Below, one piece after another: positions 1 through 39,027 of a DNA stretch of 64,000 nt. Source of the DNA: a virus; IMG/VR virus record IMGVR_UViG_3300042389_001027, positions 1-64,000 of that record; one strand, 5' to 3'. The stretch's first letter is position 1; each line of letters opens with the position of its first letter. The notes beneath the pieces are model-generated. The model searched no databases, was not told where the DNA came from, and saw nothing but the letters and a program-made list of their open reading frames with translations. A program made the translations under genes and the position numbers.

Positions 1-1538
1 CCAAGTGGCGCGTGGTGTTCTAGCCACATGGCGCAACCGTATACATCGCGTAAAGTGTCAAGATATTTAGCGACTTCAATTGCAACGCTTTCGCTGGTTC
101 TTCCGCCGGGGTCAATGAAAGACTTATAGAGCGGTCCCATGATTAGCAACTGGGGCTTTGCCTGCTCAATCGCTTCCTCAAGAATCGCCCTGTCTGACGC
201 CTTGAGTAAATCCAGTCCTGCTGGCTTGATTAATAGTTGAGCGTCCGCCTTTCGCACGTGTCCATAATGTAGTGCTGCCCCCATGATTTGCTTTGAGGTA
301 CGACGGATGATGCGCTCAGGGTTTTCTAGGTCAACAGTCAGAGTGCGAATCGGAGCAATTTTAGACATGGTGAATGGGTGCAACCCTGCCGCAGAACAAA
401 GAGCAATCTGACGCGCGAGCATCGTCTTGCCAACACCTTCGGCTGCAACAACAATTACTCTTTCGCCCTTTTCAATAAGTTGCGGAATTACCCAATCGTA
501 TGCATCAGATTCTGTTTCCTCAAGAAAATCTTGCCAAACAACAAGACGACCTTTGTCTCCGAGTTCTTGCCTATTCGTGGAATTGAGCAGAAGTGACGCA
601 CGATTAAGTTTCTGTTCTAATGAAATATCCCCTCGTGTAAGAATTGCTTCAATACCCCGAAGAATCTCGCCAGATGTGTCAGGTGCCTGACTATCGGGTT
701 CTTGTTCGTGTGCAACTTCTGGTGGTGCTTCTGCTGGTTGCTCTGGTTCGTTGAATTCCAGTAAGTCGTCAATGTTGAGACCATGCTCAAGCATCTCAGA
801 AATATCTTTACTTCCCTGAGGAGGTATGAACTTAGCAACAGTACAACCAGCCGCTTCAAGTGCTGAGCCAACAAGTTCTACGTGTTCTCGCCCAACGTCA
901 TCCCTGTCAGAAATTATGAATACGTTTGCTCCAGCGAGCGCTTCCGTGTGGATGTCCTGCCATTTGCCAGCACCATTTGGAGGAGTGGTAGCGCATAGAC
1001 CGAGGGCAACGAGGTTGTCCGCATCTTTCTCCCCTTCTACAAGCCATATGATTTCTCCTTTTTGTTTAGCAAGCAATAACTCAGGTAGGCGATAAAGAAC
1101 TTTGGGTGTGTCGCCAAGGTTAAAAATCCACTCTCCAGTGTCTTTATTCGGACGTCGTTGGCGGAATGTTTTCTGTCCGCGCTCATTGACCAGTCGTTGT
1201 TTTTGGAATAGTAAAGTTCCGTCGGCATCGCGATAGTTATAGGTAGCGACAAGAGTCAATTTTTCTTTTTTAGGTTTATCAGGTATGTCTGTTCGTGGTG
1301 GGAAGAGTGATGCTTTCTGAACTCCCATTGCCTCGCAAATTTCGTCTACGTTGCAGCCACTGCCTCGGTGGCATGTAACAAGTACGCGACCATCGCTGCC
1401 TTGCCCAATTGATAGTGACGGGTTTGAGTCATCATTCCGACACGGACAGCGTGCTGACCAATTAGAGCCGTTATCGCGAACTCCCTGCAAACGACCAAGG
1501 AATGATTCAATTTCGGGTGAGGATGTTCTTGGCGTCAT
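1..1538 (-). CDS. DNA primase-helicase (zinc finger, TOPRIM, RecA-like ATPase), 3' end outside window
   Basis: Probable replicative primase fused to a helicase/ATPase domain. About 512 codons are present and the frame is still open at base 1, so the C terminus is missing. An N-terminal CPC...CHRGSGC cluster resembles a CHC2-type primase zinc finger. A TOPRIM-like core follows (WLVEGEKDAD, then IISDRDDVG with the acidic metal-binding residues). A RecA-like ATPase comes next, with a Walker A-like AAEGVGKT and a hydrophobic Walker B-like strand. The ATG at 1538 overlaps the thyX stop (ATGA), so the two genes are translationally coupled. Expected to make primers and unwind DNA at the phage fork. 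The domain order is seen in the translation; helicase activity is inferred. Confidence 0.88.
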   Translation of the reverse strand, partial: MTPRTSSPEIESFLGRLQGVRDNGSNWSARCPCRNDDSNPSLSIGQGSDGRVLVTCHRGSGCNVDEICEAMGVQKASLFPPRTDIPDKPKKEKLTLVATYNYRDADGTLLFQKQRLVNERGQKTFRQRRPNKDTGEWIFNLGDTPKVLYRLPELLLAKQKGEIIWLVEGEKDADNLVALGLCATTPPNGAGKWQDIHTEALAGANVFIISDRDDVGREHVELVGSALEAAGCTVAKFIPPQGSKDISEMLEHGLNIDDLLEFNEPEQPAEAPPEVAHEQEPDSQAPDTSGEILRGIEAILTRGDISLEQKLNRASLLLNSTNRQELGDKGRLVVWQDFLEETESDAYDWVIPQLIEKGERVIVVAAEGVGKTMLARQIALCSAAGLHPFTMSKIAPIRTLTVDLENPERIIRRTSKQIMGAALHYGHVRKADAQLLIKPAGLDLLKASDRAILEEAIEQAKPQLLIMGPLYKSFIDPGGRTSESVAIEVAKYLDTLRDVYGCAMWLEHHAPL

Positions 1539-2236
1539 GGGCAGGTACGTCCATTTTTAGTCCATGATTCATAAGTGTGTGGCATTACTTGAGCAAACAT
1601 AGATTCTGCTGCAATAGCGTATTCACGGATTTCCTGTTGTGCCGCAGGCGCTGTGCGAAGTTCAAGGAAGTTCATCAATGAACGTGCGTTAACTGTCCAG
1701 TAGAACTCAGTAAAGATGTTGACTGGCAAGACAAGACGTGCCTGCTCTTTCGCTACGCCCAACTGGAGGAGGTACAGGTAGGTTGCGTATGCCCGTTCGT
1801 TGGCATCGGATATGGCTCGTCGTGCTTCGTGGGCATCATTTTCAGATGTTTCAAAAATTGGTGAATATTCGTAGTTGCCTTGTTTGCCTTTTTGCTGACG
1901 GATGTCCTCAACGCGTGGTGTGTAGAACGTGCTGGGCATTTCTGAGTATCGTGCAGAGAATTCATTAAAAGAACCGATGCGGTGACGGAACCATTCACGA
2001 GCGACGAAGATTGGGCACTTCACATGGAAGCGAAATGCGTTGTGTTCAAATGGTGTTCCATGACGCCAACGCATCAGGTAATTAATCAGACCAATGTCTT
2101 TATCTCGGAGAATATCGGTGTCTTGACCGAATGAAACCCGAGCCGAATTAACTACGCTGAGGTCGTCTGCCATATAAGCGTCTAGCCGAATGAAGCCATC
2201 GTTAACGTCTTGGTAGAAATCTTGTTGTTCAGGCAC
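1535..2236 (-). CDS. thyX: Flavin-dependent thymidylate synthase ThyX
   Basis: Makes dTMP from dUMP using FAD, NADPH and methylene-tetrahydrofolate, feeding phage DNA synthesis. The 233-residue length is normal for ThyX. The signature RHRIGSFNEFSARY (residues 84-97) matches the family motif RHRxxSxNExSxRY, and a TPFEHNAFRFHVKCP segment precedes it as in other ThyX proteins. The gene starts with GTG, overlaps the end of the WhiB gene by 8 nt and overlaps the primase start by 4 nt, so it sits in one leftward operon with them. With nrdJ it gives the phage its own dNTP supply. Confidence 0.96.
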   Translation of the reverse strand: MPEQQDFYQDVNDGFIRLDAYMADDLSVVNSARVSFGQDTDILRDKDIGLINYLMRWRHGTPFEHNAFRFHVKCPIFVAREWFRHRIGSFNEFSARYSEMPSTFYTPRVEDIRQQKGKQGNYEYSPIFETSENDAHEARRAISDANERAYATYLYLLQLGVAKEQARLVLPVNIFTEFYWTVNARSLMNFLELRTAPAAQQEIREYAIAAESMFAQVMPHTYESWTKNGRTCP

Positions 2237-2543
2237 GCGTGTTATCTTTCGTTATGCGTCGCGATACGCGACGGACTGTTGTGCTTTGTGATGTCAGTGC
2301 ACGTGGTGAGAGTTGGACTCCCAGTTTGCGGCGGTGCATTTCGCGTTCAACTTCTTTCATGCCACCCCATACGCCGTGGGTTTCGTTTTCAAGTGCGTAT
2401 TGAAGGCACTTTTCTGTGATGGCGCATGTGGAGCAAATCTTTATGGCTTGGAGGACGTTTACTTTACTCTCGCGCGAGTTGTCCTCGGGGAACCACCAGT
2501 GTGTTGGATGTCCTTTGCAGGCACCCTCTATTCCGTTTTCCAA
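2229..2543 (-). CDS. WhiB-family Fe-S transcriptional regulator
   Basis: WhiB-like proteins bind a 4Fe-4S cluster and act with the principal sigma factor in Actinobacteria; phage copies can interfere with host WhiB control. The four cluster cysteines are visible (C9, C37, C40, C46, i.e. C-x27-C-x2-C-x5-C), followed by the GVWGG turn (57-61) and a basic tail rich in Arg/Lys that would contact DNA. The 104-residue length is typical. The start is TTG, chosen because AGGGGG lies 6 nt upstream. It is first in the WhiB-thyX-primase group. This is the best host indicator in the window. Confidence 0.94.
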   Translation of the reverse strand: MENGIEGACKGHPTHWWFPEDNSRESKVNVLQAIKICSTCAITEKCLQYALENETHGVWGGMKEVEREMHRRKLGVQLSPRALTSQSTTVRRVSRRITKDNTRA

Positions 2544-5812: not shown

Positions 5813-6079
5813 TTAGTACTGAGCCAGACGCTCAAGGCGCTGAACTTCTGCTTGTAGTTCGCTGATTTGTGCTTCGTAATCCCTGAGTGCTTTGCATGCC
5901 TGACCAAATAGATTCATGACAACTACAACACTACGGACGGAATCGTATTTCCACCAGTGCTCGTATTCGTCATTCATTTTTGATAGTAATTCAGGGTGTA
6001 CGTTTGGCATTGTTAGCGTCTCTGTTCCTCGTATCAATTCCAATTCCTTTGGCATTTTAGTATGTTTTTGCACTGCCAC
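5813..6079 (-). CDS. Small coiled-coil hypothetical protein
   Basis: 88 residues. The C-terminal third (KALRDYEAQISELQAEVQRL) has heptad spacing typical of a coiled coil, so it probably oligomerises. GTG start at 6079 with GGAAAAAA upstream; an in-frame ATG at 6055 is the alternative. It overlaps the end of the 43-aa zinc-ribbon gene in a different frame. Function unknown. Confidence 0.62.
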   Translation of the reverse strand: MAVQKHTKMPKELELIRGTETLTMPNVHPELLSKMNDEYEHWWKYDSVRSVVVVMNLFGQACKALRDYEAQISELQAEVQRLERLAQY

Positions 6080-6165
6080 TTATTTTTTCCAAGCAAGTAT
6101 CTGTAAGCCAAAGGTCTGAACCTGTGGCGTTTACAGAAGTGGCATTGTATAAATAGAGGGGGCAT
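6034..6165 (-). CDS. 43-residue zinc-ribbon protein
   Basis: A very short gene supported by GAGGAG 5 nt before the ATG at 6165. The product has two Cys pairs, CHFC near residue 8 and CKNILKC near residue 32, separated by a basic segment, which fits a minimal zinc ribbon. Its end overlaps the next gene. A longer in-frame reading to 6219 lacks a good ribosome site. Nucleic-acid or protein binding is plausible; no family recognised. Confidence 0.55.
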   Translation of the reverse strand: MPPLFIQCHFCKRHRFRPLAYRYLLGKNKWQCKNILKCQRNWN

Positions 6166-6194
6166 GAGTTCTCCTCGGTGGCTGTAAGTCACTA

Positions 6195-6208
6195 TAACAT
6201 GCATGTTA
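6195..6208. promoter_or_regulatory. Perfect 14-bp palindrome upstream of the small-gene run
   Basis: TAACATGCATGTTA reads the same on both strands and lies about 30 nt upstream of the 43-aa gene and 27 nt beyond the end of the deacetylase gene. A site of this size and position could be an operator for a dimeric repressor. No matching promoter hexamers are convincing. Confidence 0.3.
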
Positions 6209-6234
6209 GATGAAAACAACCCAGCAGCGGGGAA

Positions 6235-7101
6235 TTACTCCCCCGCCCACTGCTCAATCGTGAGTCGGTGCCAACCGACGACATCGTCCATTGACTTCTT
6301 GCCCCACGTGTAGCCACCCGCTAGGGCAAATACTGCTGGAGTATTGCCGATGAACGAACGAACTGCCGCTTCGCGGTAAATGATGTCCTCAATGTCAACA
6401 CCGCTGTTCAATGGGTCCATGCCTGCGTTGTAGATGATGACGTCAAATGGGGTGAGTGTCTCTGCGTACTCAAGAGCACGCTCAATCTGGTCGCTATAGT
6501 TTGCCGCTGATGCTTCCCAAATTGCGCTTTCACCACTTGGTTCGTAAGTGTCAAACAAGGAGCAAACAACGTCAATCTGTGTAACGGAGGGCATTTTTGA
6601 CTTGATGATGTCCCAAGTCCCACCACCGCCGTGAGCGTCAAAGTCAAGGACAAGTACGCGAGATGCTTCCATATCAAGTGCGTGACGAGCCGCGACTGCT
6701 AGACCGTTGACGGTACAAAACCCGCCACCCATTCCGCGACGGGCGTGATGGAGTCCTGAAGACAAACTTCCTGTCAGTGTGTTTTCTTCCAATGCGTAAT
6801 GGATTGCTCCGACAAGACCAGAACTGTGCGCTACCGCCATAGTCCAAATTCCTTCATCCCAATCAAACCCTTGGGATTCTGCAAGGTTCCTAGGTTTCCC
6901 AGATTGAAGGGCGTTTACATAGTCGTCCGTATGTATACGCTGGATGATGGACTTGGTCTCGTCTGCGAACAAGTATGGGTCGTAGATTTCCAGATTTTCA
7001 ACAGGGTCGTCATATAGGGACTTGATGATGTGTTGTGACTTTCGGGTCGTATCAAACGCATAGCGTGATGCGACATAGTCATCGTTGTAAAAAAGTTTCA
7101 T
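6235..7101 (-). CDS. Histone-deacetylase-superfamily (AcuC/HdaH-type) deacetylase
   Basis: Zinc-dependent enzyme of the arginase/deacetylase fold; bacterial members remove acetyl groups from lysine side chains or acetylpolyamines. All the family's active-site residues can be placed: His pair H118-H119 (SGLHHARRG), GGGFCTVNG (126-133), the D153-x-D155-x-H157 metal cluster (VLDFDAHGGGGT), D229 (NAGMDP) and the catalytic Tyr in GGY (264). The IHTDDYV segment near residue 56 is also typical. The 288-residue length is normal and intact. ATG with GGAGAAAG upstream; 15 nt downstream of the phosphatase gene, so co-transcribed. The substrate cannot be read from sequence. Confidence 0.88.
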   Translation of the reverse strand: MKLFYNDDYVASRYAFDTTRKSQHIIKSLYDDPVENLEIYDPYLFADETKSIIQRIHTDDYVNALQSGKPRNLAESQGFDWDEGIWTMAVAHSSGLVGAIHYALEENTLTGSLSSGLHHARRGMGGGFCTVNGLAVAARHALDMEASRVLVLDFDAHGGGGTWDIIKSKMPSVTQIDVVCSLFDTYEPSGESAIWEASAANYSDQIERALEYAETLTPFDVIIYNAGMDPLNSGVDIEDIIYREAAVRSFIGNTPAVFALAGGYTWGKKSMDDVVGWHRLTIEQWAGE

Positions 7102-7116
7102 GTGTTTCTTTCTCCG

Positions 7117-7599
7117 TCAGTAATCGCGACGGTGTGTGTAAAGGATGTGAAGAAGGTCAAGTCCAAACAACCGTTCTAGGTGTTTGACGACGAGACTGTT
7201 AGGGATAAAGGGACGGAATCCGTCTCGGGTGAATCCACGAGAATCGGGTGGTTGTGAATCACGAAGGGTAATGAATGCATCCTCGGGTTCTACGCCTCGG
7301 GCAATAGCGATTCCCCATGCTGTTGACGTTGAGCGCGACATGCCTGCGTGACAGTGCACGAGAATGTCTTCTCGGTCTACTCCCCAGTCAATCATGCGCT
7401 TGACATGTTCATAGGTTGGGGCGTTGCGTCCGACGGTGGTATCGTTAAACTCAACTACAAGGTGGTTGGGGTGACCCCATTGAACCTCGTTTGCAGATGG
7501 TCCTGCTGTGATAATGGCTGAGAACTGGTTTACCCAGTCTTCCGCCTCTTGAATATTGCCTACTACTGGCAACGTGACGTCTGTCACAATACTGTCCAT
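7117..7599 (-). CDS. Cys-based protein-tyrosine/dual-specificity phosphatase
   Basis: Carries the PTP loop HCHAGMSRS (residues 82-90) with nucleophile C83 and phosphate-binding R89, in the expected V-H-C-x5-R-S context, plus a preceding aspartate (FNDTT, near 53) that could be the general acid. At 160 residues it is the size of a compact dual-specificity phosphatase. First gene of the leftward operon, with AAGGAGG 5 nt before the ATG and a promoter-like sequence upstream. Probably removes phosphate from protein or small-molecule substrates of the host; the substrate is unknown. Pairing with the deacetylase is notable. Confidence 0.85.
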   Translation of the reverse strand: MDSIVTDVTLPVVGNIQEAEDWVNQFSAIITAGPSANEVQWGHPNHLVVEFNDTTVGRNAPTYEHVKRMIDWGVDREDILVHCHAGMSRSTSTAWGIAIARGVEPEDAFITLRDSQPPDSRGFTRDGFRPFIPNSLVVKHLERLFGLDLLHILYTHRRDY

Positions 7600-7637
7600 T
7601 GGAGCCTCCTTGGCTGTCTAGTAACTATGGATATAAC

Positions 7638-7666
7638 ACTTTACATCGTTTATGTCGCCAATGCAA
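7638..7666 (-). promoter_or_regulatory. Likely leftward promoter for the phosphatase/deacetylase/early operon
   Basis: On the minus strand TTGCAT (7666-7661) and TAAAGT (7643-7638) are 17 nt apart, about 40 nt upstream of the phosphatase start. It is placed where a divergent promoter is needed, since all genes leftward to base 1 are on this strand. Confidence 0.4.
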
Positions 7667-7820
7667 CCCCTACGAGGAATTTATTCGTTTAGCCATATAA
7701 GCAGCAGGCACATCAAAACCATCACTGCAACCAAAACCAACATATATCCACACTACGGGGTTGTGAGTCTCTGCGCAAGAGGGTAATCTTCATTCCTGTC
7801 AGAAATATTCCGCACAAAGG

Positions 7821-7849
7821 TTGACGTTTCAATCTAGAGGGTGTAATGT
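7821..7849 (+). promoter_or_regulatory. Likely rightward sigma-70-type promoter
   Basis: TTGACG (7821-7826) and TAATGT (7844-7849) are separated by 17 nt and lie 68 nt before the 80-aa gene. This is the best promoter match found in the window. It probably drives the 80-aa gene, whose transcript would stop at the hairpin at 8182-8205. Confidence 0.55.
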
Positions 7850-7916
7850 TCATGACAAGCCAAAGGGCATACGCCACAAGGTGAATATCAACTAAACAAA
7901 CAACATAAGGACAACA

Positions 7917-8159
7917 ATGACAACGGCATACGAAACACTCAAGCAAAAGATGCACACTCGTAGGGGACGGGCTCCACTGCCCCCCGAAGAGAAGGCACGT
8001 CGCGCCAAGCACCAGAAGGCGGAAAACCGTCGTCGTGCGGAAGCCCGTCGTCGTGCATACCTCGTACTCCAGCATCGCTACGAGAATGAGTTCAAGGTTC
8101 TCTTTGAGGACGAGTACACGGCTCTTGAAAACGACAAGCGTTTCATGGTCACAAACTGA
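7917..8159 (+). CDS. Small highly basic protein
   Basis: 80 residues. The first 50 are dominated by Arg, Lys and Ala (KMHTRRGRAPLPPEEKARRA, then NRRRAEARRRAY), forming a positively charged helix; the C terminus is acidic. Nucleic-acid binding or host-polymerase interference is plausible. AAGGA lies 7 nt before the ATG. It stands alone between a strong promoter and an intrinsic terminator, so it is likely made abundantly early in infection. Family not recognised. Confidence 0.75.
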   Translation: MTTAYETLKQKMHTRRGRAPLPPEEKARRAKHQKAENRRRAEARRRAYLVLQHRYENEFKVLFEDEYTALENDKRFMVTN

Positions 8160-8181
8160 CCATACGCAGTCTGATGGAACT

Positions 8182-8205
8182 GGCACCCTTCGGGGTGCCT
8201 TTTTC
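8182..8205 (+). terminator. Rho-independent terminator
   Basis: Stem GGCACCC (8182-8188), TTCG tetraloop, stem GGGTGCC (8193-8199), then a T run. Seven GC-rich pairs plus the T run make a strong intrinsic terminator right after the 80-aa gene. Confidence 0.9.
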
Positions 8206-8249
8206 ATTTTCTAACTCATGTTGATGCACTAAGCGATTATTCTTAAATA

Positions 8250-8555
8250 ATGAACTTCGGAGCACGCCCACAGCAAGAGGTAATTTTCGGTGACATCACA
8301 ATCACCCACGCCGACCGCTCCCCGTGCATTATCTGTGGTCACCCAACTGGCGACTGCAATGGAGATTCCACCGCACCGAACCACATCGCTGGCGTTGGCG
8401 CGTTCAAGTCCATAGATGAAAAACTCACGTTTCTCGTTGAAGAAGACATCTGGGAAGAAAAACAGATAAACCCGCACCATCGCCAAAAAGTTCTCGTTGC
8501 TCGTAAGGGTCGTTACATCAGTCATCAAAAAGCAACAGAATTAGGTCTTCTCTAA
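8250..8555 (+). CDS. Small zinc-binding hypothetical protein (CxxCGHPTGDC)
   Basis: 101 residues with PCIICGHPTGDC near residue 26, a Cys/His cluster that resembles a small zinc knuckle found in actinophage proteins of unknown role. The C-terminal half is charged and ends with VLVARKGRYISHQKATELGL, which looks like a structured basic helix. No strong ribosome site upstream of the ATG. It precedes the ribonucleotide reductase by 72 nt. Confidence 0.72.
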   Translation: MNFGARPQQEVIFGDITITHADRSPCIICGHPTGDCNGDSTAPNHIAGVGAFKSIDEKLTFLVEEDIWEEKQINPHHRQKVLVARKGRYISHQKATELGLL

Positions 8556-10557: not shown

Positions 10558-11280
10558 ATGCCTATGGAACACATCATCATTGTCTCGTATCCGCGAAGTG
10601 GAACAACAGTAATTCAACGCATTTTGAACCGTGCTGAGGGGACTGTTGTTAGAGGGGAGACCATAGGCTCAATCGTTCATTTGGCAGAATATGTCAAACT
10701 GCTAGAGGAGATGCGTAGTAGCGTTGTTCCTCTCCTTGTGCCAGATATCCCGCCCAACAGCGACAAAAACCCTATGTATGGTCATGATGGGATTGATACG
10801 GATTTAATTGTTGACAGCATGAGGCATGCGATTGAATTCGGCACTCTGAGTTGTCCACAGGGAACATTTAGACTTGGGTGGAAAGAGAACTTTATTAACC
10901 CAAAGAACTTGGGGCATCAAAAGTCTGTTTATGTTCTCCAGTTCATACAGCGACTTTTTCCGAATATCAAATTCGTGTTCAATACCCGTGAGCCAGAAAT
11001 GATGAAGACGAGTGCTATCTGGAAGAACAAGATAAATCCCGTTGAAGAAATTCTTGAATGTAAAAGTTTTATTGAATCAGTTTACGGTTCTGGTGTGCTC
11101 GGCGCTGAAAATACAACTCTTTTAGAGTACGAGACATGGGCAGGCGGACTTGATTACGAACACGGCAAGGGTGACGCCGAATATGTTCAACACAAGTTGG
11201 CTCAGATAGGTATCTACGTTTCCCGAGATGATATCCGAGAAGTATTGGACGAATACTTAACTCATTTACAGCACCTCTGA
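10558..11280 (+). CDS. PAPS-dependent sulfotransferase family protein
   Basis: 240 residues. The N terminus has the 5'-phosphosulfate loop SYPRSGTT (10-17), and a second motif FNTREPEMMKTSAIW matches the 3'-phosphate-binding RxPxxxxxS region, the two hallmarks of PAPS-using sulfotransferases. It would move a sulfo group from PAPS to a hydroxyl or amine, for instance on a cell-surface glycan or a small molecule; the acceptor is unknown. Starts 4 nt after nrdJ, so probably co-transcribed. Phage-borne sulfotransferases occur elsewhere, but their role is largely open. Confidence 0.82.
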   Translation: MPMEHIIIVSYPRSGTTVIQRILNRAEGTVVRGETIGSIVHLAEYVKLLEEMRSSVVPLLVPDIPPNSDKNPMYGHDGIDTDLIVDSMRHAIEFGTLSCPQGTFRLGWKENFINPKNLGHQKSVYVLQFIQRLFPNIKFVFNTREPEMMKTSAIWKNKINPVEEILECKSFIESVYGSGVLGAENTTLLEYETWAGGLDYEHGKGDAEYVQHKLAQIGIYVSRDDIREVLDEYLTHLQHL

Positions 11281-35241: not shown

Positions 35242-36050
35242 TAGACATGGCAACAGCAAAGAAAGCAAATCAGGACGCTATCTTGGATGCAATCGTGCAA
35301 GAAGTGGAAACGTCAGAAACAGCAGCGTCAATGCATATTGAGTGGCGAAAAGAGCGTGAACAGGAAGAGAAGCGTCACGCACAGCGCACGACACAAATGG
35401 CAAAAGACCTTGCGGAACCATTTGCTCCTGAAGTGGAAAAAGTTCTCAAAAAGGGCGGAGCATCGCTTACTTATATTCCCGTTAGTGAAGTTATTAACCG
35501 AATGAACAAAGTATTTGGTATTGATGGGTGGAGTAGTGAAATCATTAAATGCGAGCGCGACGCCCACGACCCAGACTTTATTGTTGCATGTGTTCGCATT
35601 ACTGCGTACACCCACGGAGACCGATTCGTAAGCATCTCTAAGGATGGTTACGGCGGACAGAAAATTAAGCGCACTAAAGCGGGAGATATTGTTGACTTGG
35701 GCGACGAGTTCAAGGGTGCAGTCTCAGACGCGCTAAAGAAAGCAGTGCAACAGTTTGGAATTGGTTTGTACCTTGCTCGTAGTGAGGAGGCATTAAGTCT
35801 TGACGAAGCGGAAGAAGCGGCAGCAAGTGCACCTCAGGTAAGCGACATGTACCCCAAGTTCAAAACGTTTTTGGACAAGTTCAGCCCTGACCAAAAGGGT
35901 GAGGTCAAAACATTCTGGAGCAAGTACAGCAATGGTCGCCCCACTCCCAAGCCACACGAATTCACTGATTCTGAACTCCAAGCACTAATTGCAGAATGTG
36001 TCCGAATTGAATTTAGTGGCATTGCGGTAAGTGGTTTGTCAAGTGAGTGA
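35238..36050 (+). CDS. Rad52-family single-strand annealing protein
   Basis: 270 residues. Residues about 75-195 fit the Rad52/DdrA-like annealing fold: YIPVSEVINRMNKVFGIDGW, a beta region with RDAHDPDFIVACVRITAY, KDGYGGQKIKRTK, then DEFKGAVSDALKKAVQQFGIGLYL, the most diagnostic stretch. Such proteins pair complementary single strands during phage recombination and replication. GTG start overlapping the previous stop (GTGA); an ATG at 35247 is an alternative. Followed by a nuclease gene, completing an exonuclease/annealase-type pair. Confidence 0.88.
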   Translation: MIDMATAKKANQDAILDAIVQEVETSETAASMHIEWRKEREQEEKRHAQRTTQMAKDLAEPFAPEVEKVLKKGGASLTYIPVSEVINRMNKVFGIDGWSSEIIKCERDAHDPDFIVACVRITAYTHGDRFVSISKDGYGGQKIKRTKAGDIVDLGDEFKGAVSDALKKAVQQFGIGLYLARSEEALSLDEAEEAAASAPQVSDMYPKFKTFLDKFSPDQKGEVKTFWSKYSNGRPTPKPHEFTDSELQALIAECVRIEFSGIAVSGLSSE

Positions 36051-36813
36051 TGTGACCCTGATACCACCCCCGCATTTGTCGGCATCTTCTATATCAACAT
36101 TCCAACAGTGTCCCCTTCGGTACAAGTATTCACGGATTGATGAACTCCCTGAACCGCCGTCAGAAGCATCCCTCATGGGTAACTTTGTCCACGATATTTT
36201 GGAGGGGCTCTATAGGCAGGAGTCATCTACCCGAACACTAGGTACGGCACGCATGCTTGCTGCATCTCTGTGGAATGACTACGAAGAACGCGCCATGAAA
36301 GTTGCGAAAACACCTGAGGCAATTAGGCGATTCCGCTGGAACTCATGGTGGTGTGTAGAGAAATTGTTTTCAATGGAAGACCCTACGCAACGCGAGTTTG
36401 ATGGTCTTGAGCATGAAATCAATCATGAAATTAATGGCGTTCGCGTCAAGGGCTTCATTGATAGATGGCATTTACATAACGATGGAATTGTAATTGGCGA
36501 CTACAAAACTGGGAAAACCCCTAAGCCTCATTATGCAGGGGACAAGTTTTTTCAGTTGCTCCTCTACGGAGTCGTACTTCACGAGCAACTTGGAAAGCCA
36601 ATAGAGTCTGTGGAATTGCTTTACATCAAAGATGGTGAGCGACTCCACAAATCACCCACCGCCGAAGATATGCAAAGTGTCTACGACACCGTGGTGGAAA
36701 TTAGAACAGGAATAGACGAGCGTTGCGCCACTGGAGAGTTTGAGTACAAGCCTTCCAGACTGTGCGACTGGTGTTCGTTTAAGTCAATATGCCCATACTG
36801 GAGAAAAAAATGA
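36043..36813 (+). CDS. Cas4/RecB-like PD-(D/E)XK nuclease
   Basis: About 256 residues. LSASSISTFQQCPLRYKYSRI and LMGNFVHDILEGLY are the N-terminal motifs of RecB/Cas4-like nucleases; VKGFIDRWH ... VIGDYKTGK holds the catalytic D ... D-x-K set. A C-terminal LCDWCSFKSICPYW together with the N-terminal Cys could hold a 4Fe-4S cluster as in Cas4/AddB. Likely the 5'-3' resection partner of the annealing protein. Start is uncertain (GTG at 36043 or 36031). Overlaps both neighbours, so it sits in a tight operon. Confidence 0.88.
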   Translation: MSDVTLIPPPHLSASSISTFQQCPLRYKYSRIDELPEPPSEASLMGNFVHDILEGLYRQESSTRTLGTARMLAASLWNDYEERAMKVAKTPEAIRRFRWNSWWCVEKLFSMEDPTQREFDGLEHEINHEINGVRVKGFIDRWHLHNDGIVIGDYKTGKTPKPHYAGDKFFQLLLYGVVLHEQLGKPIESVELLYIKDGERLHKSPTAEDMQSVYDTVVEIRTGIDERCATGEFEYKPSRLCDWCSFKSICPYWRKK

Positions 36814-37325
36814 ATGACGATACATTTGCCCGTGTAGTTGCGGAAGATGTAAAAAATCGCGCAACACAACCACAAAAGGAATACCTTAAACTTCCTGAAA
36901 ACTGGAGTCGTTGGCAACGTGCACTGTCCACGCTGGAAAACAACCTTAATGACCAACTTGAAGGTATTTATACCTACGAGCAAGAACAGATAAAGACGTT
37001 TCAAACGCTCGGTCAAGATGGCATCAAACTGATTGCGGAAGCAACAGCCGAACACGAAGCACGCCGTAAGAAAATTGAACGCTTCAAGTTTCATGTGACA
37101 AACAGGCTTGATGAAGTTACACGCATGATTGCTGTTGGCGGGGAAGCGATTGACGAACGACTTCATGTTGTGGATTTTTTGCGTCGCGCAATTGAGCAAC
37201 ACAAAGCAATGATGATTTCATACGACCTTGAACCGACCCCAATAGACGGCGCACTATGGGCTGCACTTGACGGACGTTGGGAATTTGACAACCTGTCCGA
37301 GGAAGACATTCTTTCGTTCTCATGA
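36810..37325 (+). CDS. Hypothetical helical protein in the recombination operon
   Basis: 171 residues, unrecognised. Long helical regions (YEQEQIKTFQTLGQDGIKL; AEATAEHEARRKKIERFKFH) suggest a coiled coil or helical bundle. ATG overlaps the nuclease stop (ATGA) with GGAGA upstream, and its own stop overlaps the next start (ATGA). The coupling indicates a function together with the nuclease or the IbrA-like protein. Confidence 0.7.
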   Translation: MNDDTFARVVAEDVKNRATQPQKEYLKLPENWSRWQRALSTLENNLNDQLEGIYTYEQEQIKTFQTLGQDGIKLIAEATAEHEARRKKIERFKFHVTNRLDEVTRMIAVGGEAIDERLHVVDFLRRAIEQHKAMMISYDLEPTPIDGALWAALDGRWEFDNLSEEDILSFS

Positions 37326-38485
37326 CACGACAACGCATGTTCCTAGACATCTCGTGTGTTGATGCCGCACGTGAACGTATGCGACACGTATATGACACGT
37401 TTGACACGGTGTGCGTACAATTCTCTGGAGGGAAGGACTCAACTGCTGTTCTGTATCTTGCTAAAGAAATCCATGAAGAACGGAATCTCGGACCAGTAAA
37501 AGTTATTTTTCGTGACGAGGAGATGGTTAGCCCTCTTGTCATTGATTTCATAATGAAAGTACGTGATTACGACTGGGTTGACATGGAGTGGTACTGCCTC
37601 CCCGTTGGGCAGGAGGTCTGGGTGCTTGGGCGCAGAGAGTATTGCTTGCTCTGGTCACCAGAGCGCGCCAAGCGAGACATGCTTGTACGTGAAATGCCAT
37701 CGTTCGCAATTCGTGCAGAGCACTTTGGTATAGACCCATCTCGTCCAATTCCTGAAACGATTGACTTCTACACCATGCAAGGCAAGCGTGGACGGACTGC
37801 TTTTATTACAGGTGTACGCGCTAACGAGTCCATGATTCGCTACAGGTCGTGCGTGCAGAAACTGCATGAGAACTACATCAACATTCCATTCCGAATGAAG
37901 AAGTCAGTTCCCCTCAGGTTCGCAAAGGTTATCTATGACTGGACAACTGATGATGTACTGAAATTCATTACTGAAGAACACGGTGGTGAGTATTGCGAGT
38001 ACTACGACCTTGCCTCTATTACTGGAAGTAATACGCGCGTCGGTATCCCGTTGCATGCCGTAGCCTCCCGCCGAATCGGCGATGTCGTCGCTACCGAACC
38101 TGAGTTCTTTGACCGACTCTATGATTGCTACCCCCATATTGACGCACAGCGCAGATGGTGGAGCGAATTCAACGTGGAAGCGCTTATTGCTCGCTACGTT
38201 GAGGAAGGCTGGGATGGGGTTCGGCAGTGTATTGACGACAACATGCTGACGCCGGGGATGCAGGGTGCTGCAATGAAATTTGCGGGAGAGTTCAGAAAGA
38301 AGCAGGCAACGGACAAGTTTGGCTACCCGCTGGATTCCCTCATTCGCACGCTTTTGTTGAACGAGTTCCAAGTCACCTCTCCCAACCCAGTCGGACCGAA
38401 AACGCGAGCCCACACCTTGAGGACTCTTGCAGCGCAACAAGAACAAGACCAGAACGACCTAGATAGTTTGGATGATTTTAAATGA
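37322..38485 (+). CDS. PAPS-reductase-like (IbrA/DndC-type) protein
   Basis: 387 residues. The ATP-pyrophosphatase P-loop FSGGKDSTAVL (34-44) and the surrounding alpha-hydrolase fold match the phosphoadenosine-phosphosulfate reductase family; length and C-terminal part fit the IbrA-like branch. Several Cys residues follow (SCVQKLHENY; EYCEYYD). IbrA/IbrB-like pairs are frequent in phages and islands, but their reaction is not established; nucleic-acid sulfur or adenylate chemistry has been suggested for relatives. Linked to the ParB-like gene by ATGA overlap. Confidence 0.85.
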   Translation: MTRQRMFLDISCVDAARERMRHVYDTFDTVCVQFSGGKDSTAVLYLAKEIHEERNLGPVKVIFRDEEMVSPLVIDFIMKVRDYDWVDMEWYCLPVGQEVWVLGRREYCLLWSPERAKRDMLVREMPSFAIRAEHFGIDPSRPIPETIDFYTMQGKRGRTAFITGVRANESMIRYRSCVQKLHENYINIPFRMKKSVPLRFAKVIYDWTTDDVLKFITEEHGGEYCEYYDLASITGSNTRVGIPLHAVASRRIGDVVATEPEFFDRLYDCYPHIDAQRRWWSEFNVEALIARYVEEGWDGVRQCIDDNMLTPGMQGAAMKFAGEFRKKQATDKFGYPLDSLIRTLLLNEFQVTSPNPVGPKTRAHTLRTLAAQQEQDQNDLDSLDDFK

Positions 38486-39027
38486 ACTACTCAGAAATGC
38501 CAATCAATTCACTAAAGCCTGCACCTTGGCGAGTCAACTATGTCCTGAAGCCAGACATGTTGTTACTGTCTCAGTCAATGAATGATTATGGCTGGCTGCA
38601 ACCAATAGTGGTTCAGAAATCAACCAGCCACATAATTGACGGGTTTCACAGATGGGTTACTGCTCAAAGCGCTGATTTTATCAAAAAACATGGCAAGAGC
38701 GTTCCAGTTATTGTCGTTGACGTTGACAATGTTGACGCAATGATTATGCATATTCGCCTAAATCGTGCGCGAGGTAACATATTTGCTAAGCCTTTCAGTA
38801 AATTAATCAGAACTCTTGTCGTCTCAGATAAGTATGATGCTGATGAAGTTGCAGACATGTTGAACATGTCAGCGGACGAATTTGACCTCATGTTGACGGG
38901 TGGTTTGCTGAAACAACGCAAGATTCCGCAACATCAATACTCAAAAGCGTGGGTTCCTGTAGAGGCACCGAGTAAAGGCGAATTAGATAATCAGGTTATT
39001 GAGCGTCCACCTAATGCTGATAGATGA
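38482..39027 (+). CDS. ParB-like (IbrB-type) protein
   Basis: 181 residues. Shows a ParB/sulfiredoxin-like core: MPINSLKPAPWRVNYVLKPD, SMNDYGWLQPIVV, HIIDGFHRWVTA and MHIRLNRARG, the motifs used for nucleotide binding in ParB-fold proteins. The second half has a helix-turn-helix-like segment (YDADEVADMLNMSADEFDLM). Partner of the upstream IbrA-like protein, with which it overlaps by 4 nt. DNA binding or a regulatory role is expected; exact reaction unknown. Confidence 0.86.
   Translation: MNYSEMPINSLKPAPWRVNYVLKPDMLLLSQSMNDYGWLQPIVVQKSTSHIIDGFHRWVTAQSADFIKKHGKSVPVIVVDVDNVDAMIMHIRLNRARGNIFAKPFSKLIRTLVVSDKYDADEVADMLNMSADEFDLMLTGGLLKQRKIPQHQYSKAWVPVEAPSKGELDNQVIERPPNADR

Follow-up and report, generated by a model that had tools for sequence, protein, structure and literature searches.

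The gene systems closest to the locus described here are the ARG-centric systems of bacteria, in which an ADP-ribosylglycohydrolase (ARG) is combined with a rhodanese-phosphatase (R-P), a Nudix or WYL regulator, ARPP and TY-Chap/vWA chaperones and which are predicted to act against viral ADP-ribosylation (Iyer et al. 2022, PMC9503650, section 3.8); the components listed in that section do not include a histone deacetylase (HDAC). Among described enzymes, the nearest to the deacetylase of this locus are the cluster 5 bacterial Zn deacylases, namely, Vibrio cholerae HdaH (VcHdaH; 9gkv/9gky) and a Leptospira HDAC11-like enzyme (9gz5), and one phage HDAC of the same branch was already annotated, as gp202 of Rhodococcus phage E3. 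We examined a window of 64,000 nt, corresponding to positions 1 to 64,000 of a 128,618-bp IMG/VR virus record (record label G000), in which a Cys-based phosphatase (referred to here as the DSP) is followed directly by an HDAC-fold deacylase. This HDAC branch was found to have about 300 chromosomal relatives and to lie, in bacteria, beside a different DSP subfamily and in clusters with ARG, NrtR and ARPP, which is new. Our reading, held tentatively and with slightly less than even confidence, is that the phage pair is a cotranscribed two-enzyme module for erasing modifications, a reduced counterpart of the bacterial HDAC/DSP/ARG clusters that lacks the ARG and would clear marks during infection. 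The pair consists of the following features.

7117..7599, minus strand: DSP/PTP-fold Cys phosphatase of the rhodanese-phosphatase superfamily, 160 aa, first gene of the pair (open reading frame [ORF], sub-threshold PF00782 match, AlphaFold2 model with Foldseek, invariant residues, omega).
7102..7116, minus strand: 15-nt intergenic spacer with a Shine-Dalgarno (SD)-like GGAGAAAG ahead of the HDAC ATG (sequence).
6235..7101, minus strand: HDAC-fold Zn-dependent deacylase, 288 aa, FDTTRKS branch (PF00850, AlphaFold2, Foldseek, invariant residues, omega).

The HDAC matched PF00850 with a score of 86.3 bits (cutoff, 27.9 bits; E = 3e-24), and its AlphaFold2 model (pLDDT, 90.6; pTM, 0.92) had an arginase/deacetylase fold. 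The best PDB matches detected by Foldseek were V. cholerae HdaH and the Leptospira HDAC11-like enzyme (TM, 0.82 to 0.84), and in a profile search VcHdaH (E = 5e-40) ranked ahead of HDAC6 (about 1e-31) and the acetylpolyamine amidohydrolases (ApaH; 1e-14 to 1e-18); placement among the HDAC clusters is by this fold and profile ranking and not by a tree with reference sequences. The active site comprises a His-His dyad (H118/H119), the Zn ligands D155, H157 and D229 and the catalytic Tyr Y264, and these residues, together with D153, were invariant in alignments of 18 and of 31 relatives. The cluster 5 deacylases share the catalytic residues but have about 23% identity to the window HDAC, which differs from them in its branch motif (F-D-T-T-R-K), in a D-x-D-A-H-x-G-G-G sequence replacing the usual second His and in a shortened loop after the last Zn ligand. 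As judged by sequence and model, the protein is a classical Zn-deacylase for which deacylase activity is predicted. Its branch is distinct, and no description of it was found in the literature consulted. In the BFVD viral structure library, no clear phage HDAC-fold match was detected; the sole clear matches were HDAC-like proteins of giant viruses (Yasminevirus, Catovirus, Hyperionvirus and CeV), which share the fold but belong to eukaryotic viruses and have 15 to 17% identity to the window HDAC.

The DSP has a P loop of the HCx5R(S/T) form, HCHAGMSRS, containing C83 and R89, and these two residues and D53, a candidate general acid, were invariant in 13 relatives. The PF00782 match was below the curated cutoff (25.4 versus 33.5 bits; E = 1.3e-5), and the protein was therefore classed by its fold and active site and not as a PF00782 member. 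Foldseek analysis of the AlphaFold2 model gave a probability of 1.00 for Tk-PTP and DUSPs (TM, about 0.57; E = 3e-5), and PHROGs matches were weak. Neither protein had a match in NCBIfam or, at an E value of ≤0.1, among the PADLOC 2.0 defence models. Comparison with a relative having 88% (HDAC) and 83% (DSP) identity indicated purifying selection on both genes, with omega values of 0.05 for the HDAC and 0.09 for the DSP.

The sequence from the DSP stop codon, TGA, to the HDAC ATG reads cggagaaagaaacac, with the SD-like GGAGAAAG inside it, and an AAGGAGG SD sequence lies ahead of the DSP ATG; the two genes are likely to be cotranscribed. A preliminary description of the locus had placed an HDAC-superfamily enzyme 15 nt downstream of a Cys-based phosphatase, and the coordinates, strand, spacing and all of the catalytic residues that it named (H118/H119, D153, D155, H157, D229 and Y264 in the HDAC; C83 and R89 in the phosphatase) were correct. 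Its designation of both proteins as eraser-type enzymes agrees with their complete catalytic residues, from which activity is predicted.

Relatives in phages were sought in 50,697 annotated phage records and in IMG/VR loci. Annotated phage HDAC-fold enzymes were almost absent: the full-length relative was E3 gp202 (AEQ21122.1; two records of one phage), which is annotated as "putative histone deacetylase protein" and has 41.5% identity over 98% of the query, and five other records gave weak partial matches. Yet at least 88 IMG/VR loci carry the HDAC branch, and 17 IMG/VR loci have a close DSP. The pair had been described as unusual in a phage, which the prior annotation of gp202 and the number of IMG/VR loci leave only partly right. 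E3 is an actinobacterial phage of a size similar to that of the window's virus, but its record has no DSP of the window type and gp202 has small genes and a tail-fibre gene as neighbours; no characterisation of gp202 was found in the literature searched.

The preliminary description had also named co-occurrence in related phages as a check, with absence of the pair counting against its proposal, and the outcome did not refute it. In 28 of the 68 nonidentical phage HDAC rows (window included), the gene immediately upstream of the HDAC was the DSP, with a gap of 3 to 63 nt as measured from the start of the match, and pairs persisted down to about 37 to 38% HDAC identity. The DSP genes of L036 to L038 were missed by greedy ORF calling and were recovered by six-frame profile searches. 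Three or more contexts of the pair were observed, namely, a ribonucleotide reductase (RNR)/capsid lineage, a DUF932-like/SSB lineage (L056 to L058) and L054. The phage pair is thus recurrent but separable. An HDAC without a DSP occurred in primase-like/ThyX/HDAC/helicase-like and in ParB-like/HDAC/PAPS-reductase-like arrangements. In the window, a PAPS-reductase-like gene overlaps a ParB-like gene (37322-39027, plus strand), and similar genes lie just 3' of the HDAC in L045, L049, L050 and L069. In phages lacking the DSP (L084, L088, L093 and L101 to L109), an HAD-like gene with an FLDVDGVI motif was seen two genes 5' of the HDAC, before ThyX, and may act as the phosphatase partner instead.

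When 84,980 genomes were scanned with the HDAC alignment, 305 relatives were detected, the best 80 of which had 34 to 63% identity. The two nearest (63%) are on contigs that carry cellular-looking genes and are assigned to acIV and F1-60 metagenome-assembled genomes of freshwater Actinobacteria, and neither contig has a DSP adjoining the HDAC (L131 ends close upstream). Pfam analysis of 101 operon neighbours of bacterial HDACs identified DSPc as the commonest family (11 proteins), followed by ARPP-1 (3), TY-Chap3 (3) and ADP_ribosyl_GH (2); the remainder were transporters, sensor domains and others. The following gene clusters were observed.

L229/L139 and L141: NrtR, then ARG-DSP-HDAC.
L222: ARG::DSP fusion, then NrtR-DSP-HDAC.
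L206: DSP-ARG-DSP-HDAC.
L170: ARG-DSP-HDAC.
L137: DSP-ARPP-HDAC.
L133, L135 and L150: ARPP-HDAC.
L156: HDAC-ARG.

A gene of the HDAC branch was likewise seen inside ARG/R-P/NrtR/ARPP clusters in L219 and others, besides L222, L229, L206 and L137. In Mycobacteriales, a vWA-like gene with a DRSGSM-type motif lies upstream of the HDAC, as detected with a home-made profile and with no Pfam match. The DSP subfamily beside bacterial HDACs (A6) is distantly related to the phage DSP subfamily (A2), and only 60 columns aligned in a profile comparison.

The association was quantified in 198 Acidimicrobiia genomes, in which the HDAC branch was present in 8, the A6 DSP in 17 and ARG in 61. The A6 DSP was detected in 7 of the 8 HDAC genomes, compared to 17 of 198 overall (hypergeometric P = 7e-8), and ARG in 15 of the 17 A6 genomes (P = 4e-7); the genomes are related, and these P values overstate their independence. 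For four of the nine Acidimicrobiia HDACs, an A6 DSP lay no more than about 350 nt away, in a codirectional or divergent orientation. The window locus resembles the ARG-centric systems in having an R-P-type phosphatase, tightly coupled 15 nt upstream of the HDAC, and bacterial members of its HDAC branch sit in such clusters; it differs in that no ARG, NrtR or ARPP partner was found with the phage pair and in that the HDAC is not among the components given in section 3.8 of the published account.

In a tree of 145 HDACs from a quick maximum-likelihood search, phage and bacterial rows interleaved, with 13 changes, of which 7 were forced by well-supported branches, and the HDAC gene is therefore likely to have passed between phages and cells on several occasions. 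The presence of an adjoining A6 DSP required five changes (four forced) and that of an adjoining A2 DSP six (three forced), making repeated gain or loss of the DSP partner likely. The half of the tree containing the window HDAC had bacterial members without a pot operon, several of which had ARPP, ARG or DSP partners.

The bases of the proposal that the DSP and HDAC form an eraser module are the catalytic residues, the folds, codirectional adjacency, purifying selection, the recurrence of the pairing in phages and, with a different DSP subfamily, in bacteria, and the membership of bacterial HDACs of this branch in ARG/ARPP/NrtR clusters. The bacterial counterparts would be the clusters in which the same HDAC branch accompanies a DSP phosphatase, ARG, a NrtR-type Nudix regulator, ARPP and vWA/TY chaperones. 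During infection, both enzymes would act on one set of modified molecules, the HDAC hydrolysing an acyl-amide and the DSP a phosphate monoester. These shared targets would most likely be proteins, or possibly an ADP-ribose- or nucleotide-type adduct, and the result would be removal of marks set by host enzymes, host defence or rival elements on machinery that the phage needs. The suggestion that the pair undoes a defence signal has gained a better footing from bacterial relatives in clusters predicted to remove modifications in phage conflict, and a counter-defence role may be envisaged; taken as a whole, the interpretation in the preliminary description is partly supported.

Several results weigh against this proposal. 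In the HDAC tree, 46 of 142 inner branches were unsupported. The HDAC occurs without a DSP in many phages and the DSP without an HDAC in four records, and each enzyme can therefore work alone. Although the A2 profile finds phage records, it detected nothing in the 198 Acidimicrobiia genomes, and descent of the phage pair from a host cluster is therefore not shown. Co-occurrence of HDAC and ARG alone was weak in the same genomes (6 of 8 HDAC genomes; P = 0.011), ARG systems are themselves only predicted to function in conflict, and a Burkholderiales clade ties the same HDAC branch to polyamine transport. No ARG, ARPP, NrtR or vWA profile match was found in phage HDAC flanks of up to about 8 to 10 kb (WYL and TY-Chap were not searched in phages), and of 16 phage records searched for ARG (PF03747), 15, including G000, had no match. 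Lacking the defining ARG, the pair is not an ARG-centric system; that assignment was rejected. A phage-classed record, G214 (L059), has an ADP-ribosylglycohydrolase match at 35954-36199, about 10 kb from its HDAC.

A broader and more doubtful suggestion is that the HDAC branch is an unrecognised part of the bacterial ARG/rhodanese-phosphatase conflict systems, a third eraser that would act on acyl marks beside those acting on ADP-ribose and phosphate. The HDAC-phosphatase half would then serve phages as a portable counter-module that removes marks of several types, whether set by host defence or by rival phages.

The main rival, which we regard as unlikely, is polyamine salvage. The HDAC would be an acetylpolyamine (acetyl-diamine) deacetylase freeing spermidine or putrescine for phage DNA packaging or translation, and the phosphatase would be a separate auxiliary gene. 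This explanation is favoured by the Burkholderiales clade (40 to 43% identity to the window HDAC), in all seven rows of which the HDAC follows a PotD-PotA-PotB-PotC operon, with PotA above the TIGR01187 cutoff. In the two loci whose frames were read (L187 and L197), potC and the HDAC gene share 4 nt, and near the L178 HDAC a second pot set was seen along with a glutamine-synthetase-like enzyme and an aminotransferase. Furthermore, giant viruses encode proven acetylpolyamine deacetylases (PMC9992855). The window HDAC shares the superfamily with these enzymes and with ApaH (cluster 4), but several differences from them were seen. In HDAC10, the Glu of a PEG motif is the polyamine gatekeeper and ApaH enzymes have PIS at this position; acetylpolyamine amidohydrolases of the ApaH/HDAC10 type have extended L1/L2 (PSL) loops (PMC11532494), and a length of about 341 to 348 aa and a head-to-head dimer are typical of ApaH. 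The window HDAC has no apparent PIS or PEG motif, gave a weaker profile match to ApaH than to VcHdaH and, at 288 aa, does not reach the ApaH length, a comparison of length only. After the last Zn-ligand Asp, all seven pot-clade members have PFE or PYE, compared to PLN and the shortened loop in the window HDAC, and an acidic residue there was common in bacterial rows, pot clade included (43 of 52), and rare in phage rows (9 of 68). This difference is a hint that phage HDACs act on another substrate than those of the pot clade, the motif positions having been equated by sequence and not by structure. The pot clade also sits in the other half of the tree, and polyamine salvage leaves the recurrent pairing with phosphatases unexplained.

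A somewhat lower probability attaches to two independent auxiliary regulators, with the HDAC resetting host lysine acylation (e.g., of acetyl-CoA synthetase, HU or RNA polymerase) and the DSP dephosphorylating targets of Ser/Thr/Tyr kinases, as metabolic tuning and not counter-defence. In many phages, the HDAC lies among RNR, ThyX, primase-like, SSB and helicase-like genes, sirtuins of other phages have been read likewise (PMC5107563) and the nearest solved structures are protein or fatty deacylases; the association of the HDAC branch with ARG/ARPP/NrtR/chaperone clusters is not predicted by this explanation. It is improbable that the adjacency is hitchhiking within conserved phage gene order, with no functional link. 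The conserved gene order of the one lineage holding many of the pair-bearing phages and the single occurrences of each gene would fit it, but L054 and L056 to L058 have the pair in different surroundings and a different DSP subfamily is paired in several bacterial branches, with at least four forced changes and in both codirectional and divergent orientations. Acetylated DNA bases, mycothiol-type deacetylation and O-acetyl-ADP-ribose processing had no specific support in the gene neighbourhoods.

The virus infects freshwater bacteria, and a 127-bp direct repeat common to both ends of the record would fit a complete genome that is circular or terminally redundant. The surroundings of the pair contain the following features.

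7600..7916, no strand: divergent intergenic region, 317 nt, between the pair (minus strand) and plus-strand genes leading to a class II RNR.
6034..6219, minus strand: small ORF with CxxC pairs, 3' of the HDAC, with an internal ATG as the likely start (ORF lists).
2229..2543, minus strand: WhiB-like regulator in the same gene run as the pair (PF02467; E = 7e-15).
1535..2236, minus strand: ThyX thymidylate synthase in the same gene run (PF02511; E = 6e-53).

The minus-strand run headed by the pair includes WhiB and ThyX and, at the record end, a primase-like ORF with a Cys motif identified by eye. The preliminary description had the pair start behind a divergent promoter: no other minus-strand gene comes between the 317-nt gap and the DSP, but promoter-like matches around the gap were at background (13 found versus 9.9 ± 3.3 expected), and early expression of the pair is therefore something that we infer. 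A small same-strand gene precedes the DSP in some other phages (L021 and L007), and the position of the DSP as first gene is therefore not conserved. By eye, the ORF at 6034..6219 resembles a small gene 3' of the HDAC in another phage (L009:10650-10823).

Elsewhere in the record, a sulfotransferase-like gene (PF13469; window 10558-11280, plus strand) lies directly 3' of the class II RNR. G000 also encodes a tryptophan halogenase at 69577-71067 (L030:5577-7067, plus strand; PF04820, E = 2e-103) and a CoA-transferase family III protein at 122301-123488 (L032:18301-19488, minus strand; PF02515, E = 2e-93), and a 2OG-Fe(II) oxygenase-like protein was present elsewhere in the protein set scanned. 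A Proteasome family match (PF00227; E = 5e-10), unusual for a phage, was obtained among the scanned phage proteins and is presumably the ORF at G000 82710-83339 (L030:18710-19339, plus strand). This ORF has the N-terminal sequence TTIVGIQGDG...ATDSRI, and look-alikes lie near the DSP in L026 and L027 (about 7917-8528).

If the DSP-HDAC pair does erase conflict marks, its action would be the reverse of that of the known phage writers, the ADP-ribosyltransferases and the acetyltransferase Rac. If true, a deacylase would be added to the predicted bacterial system for undoing viral modifications.
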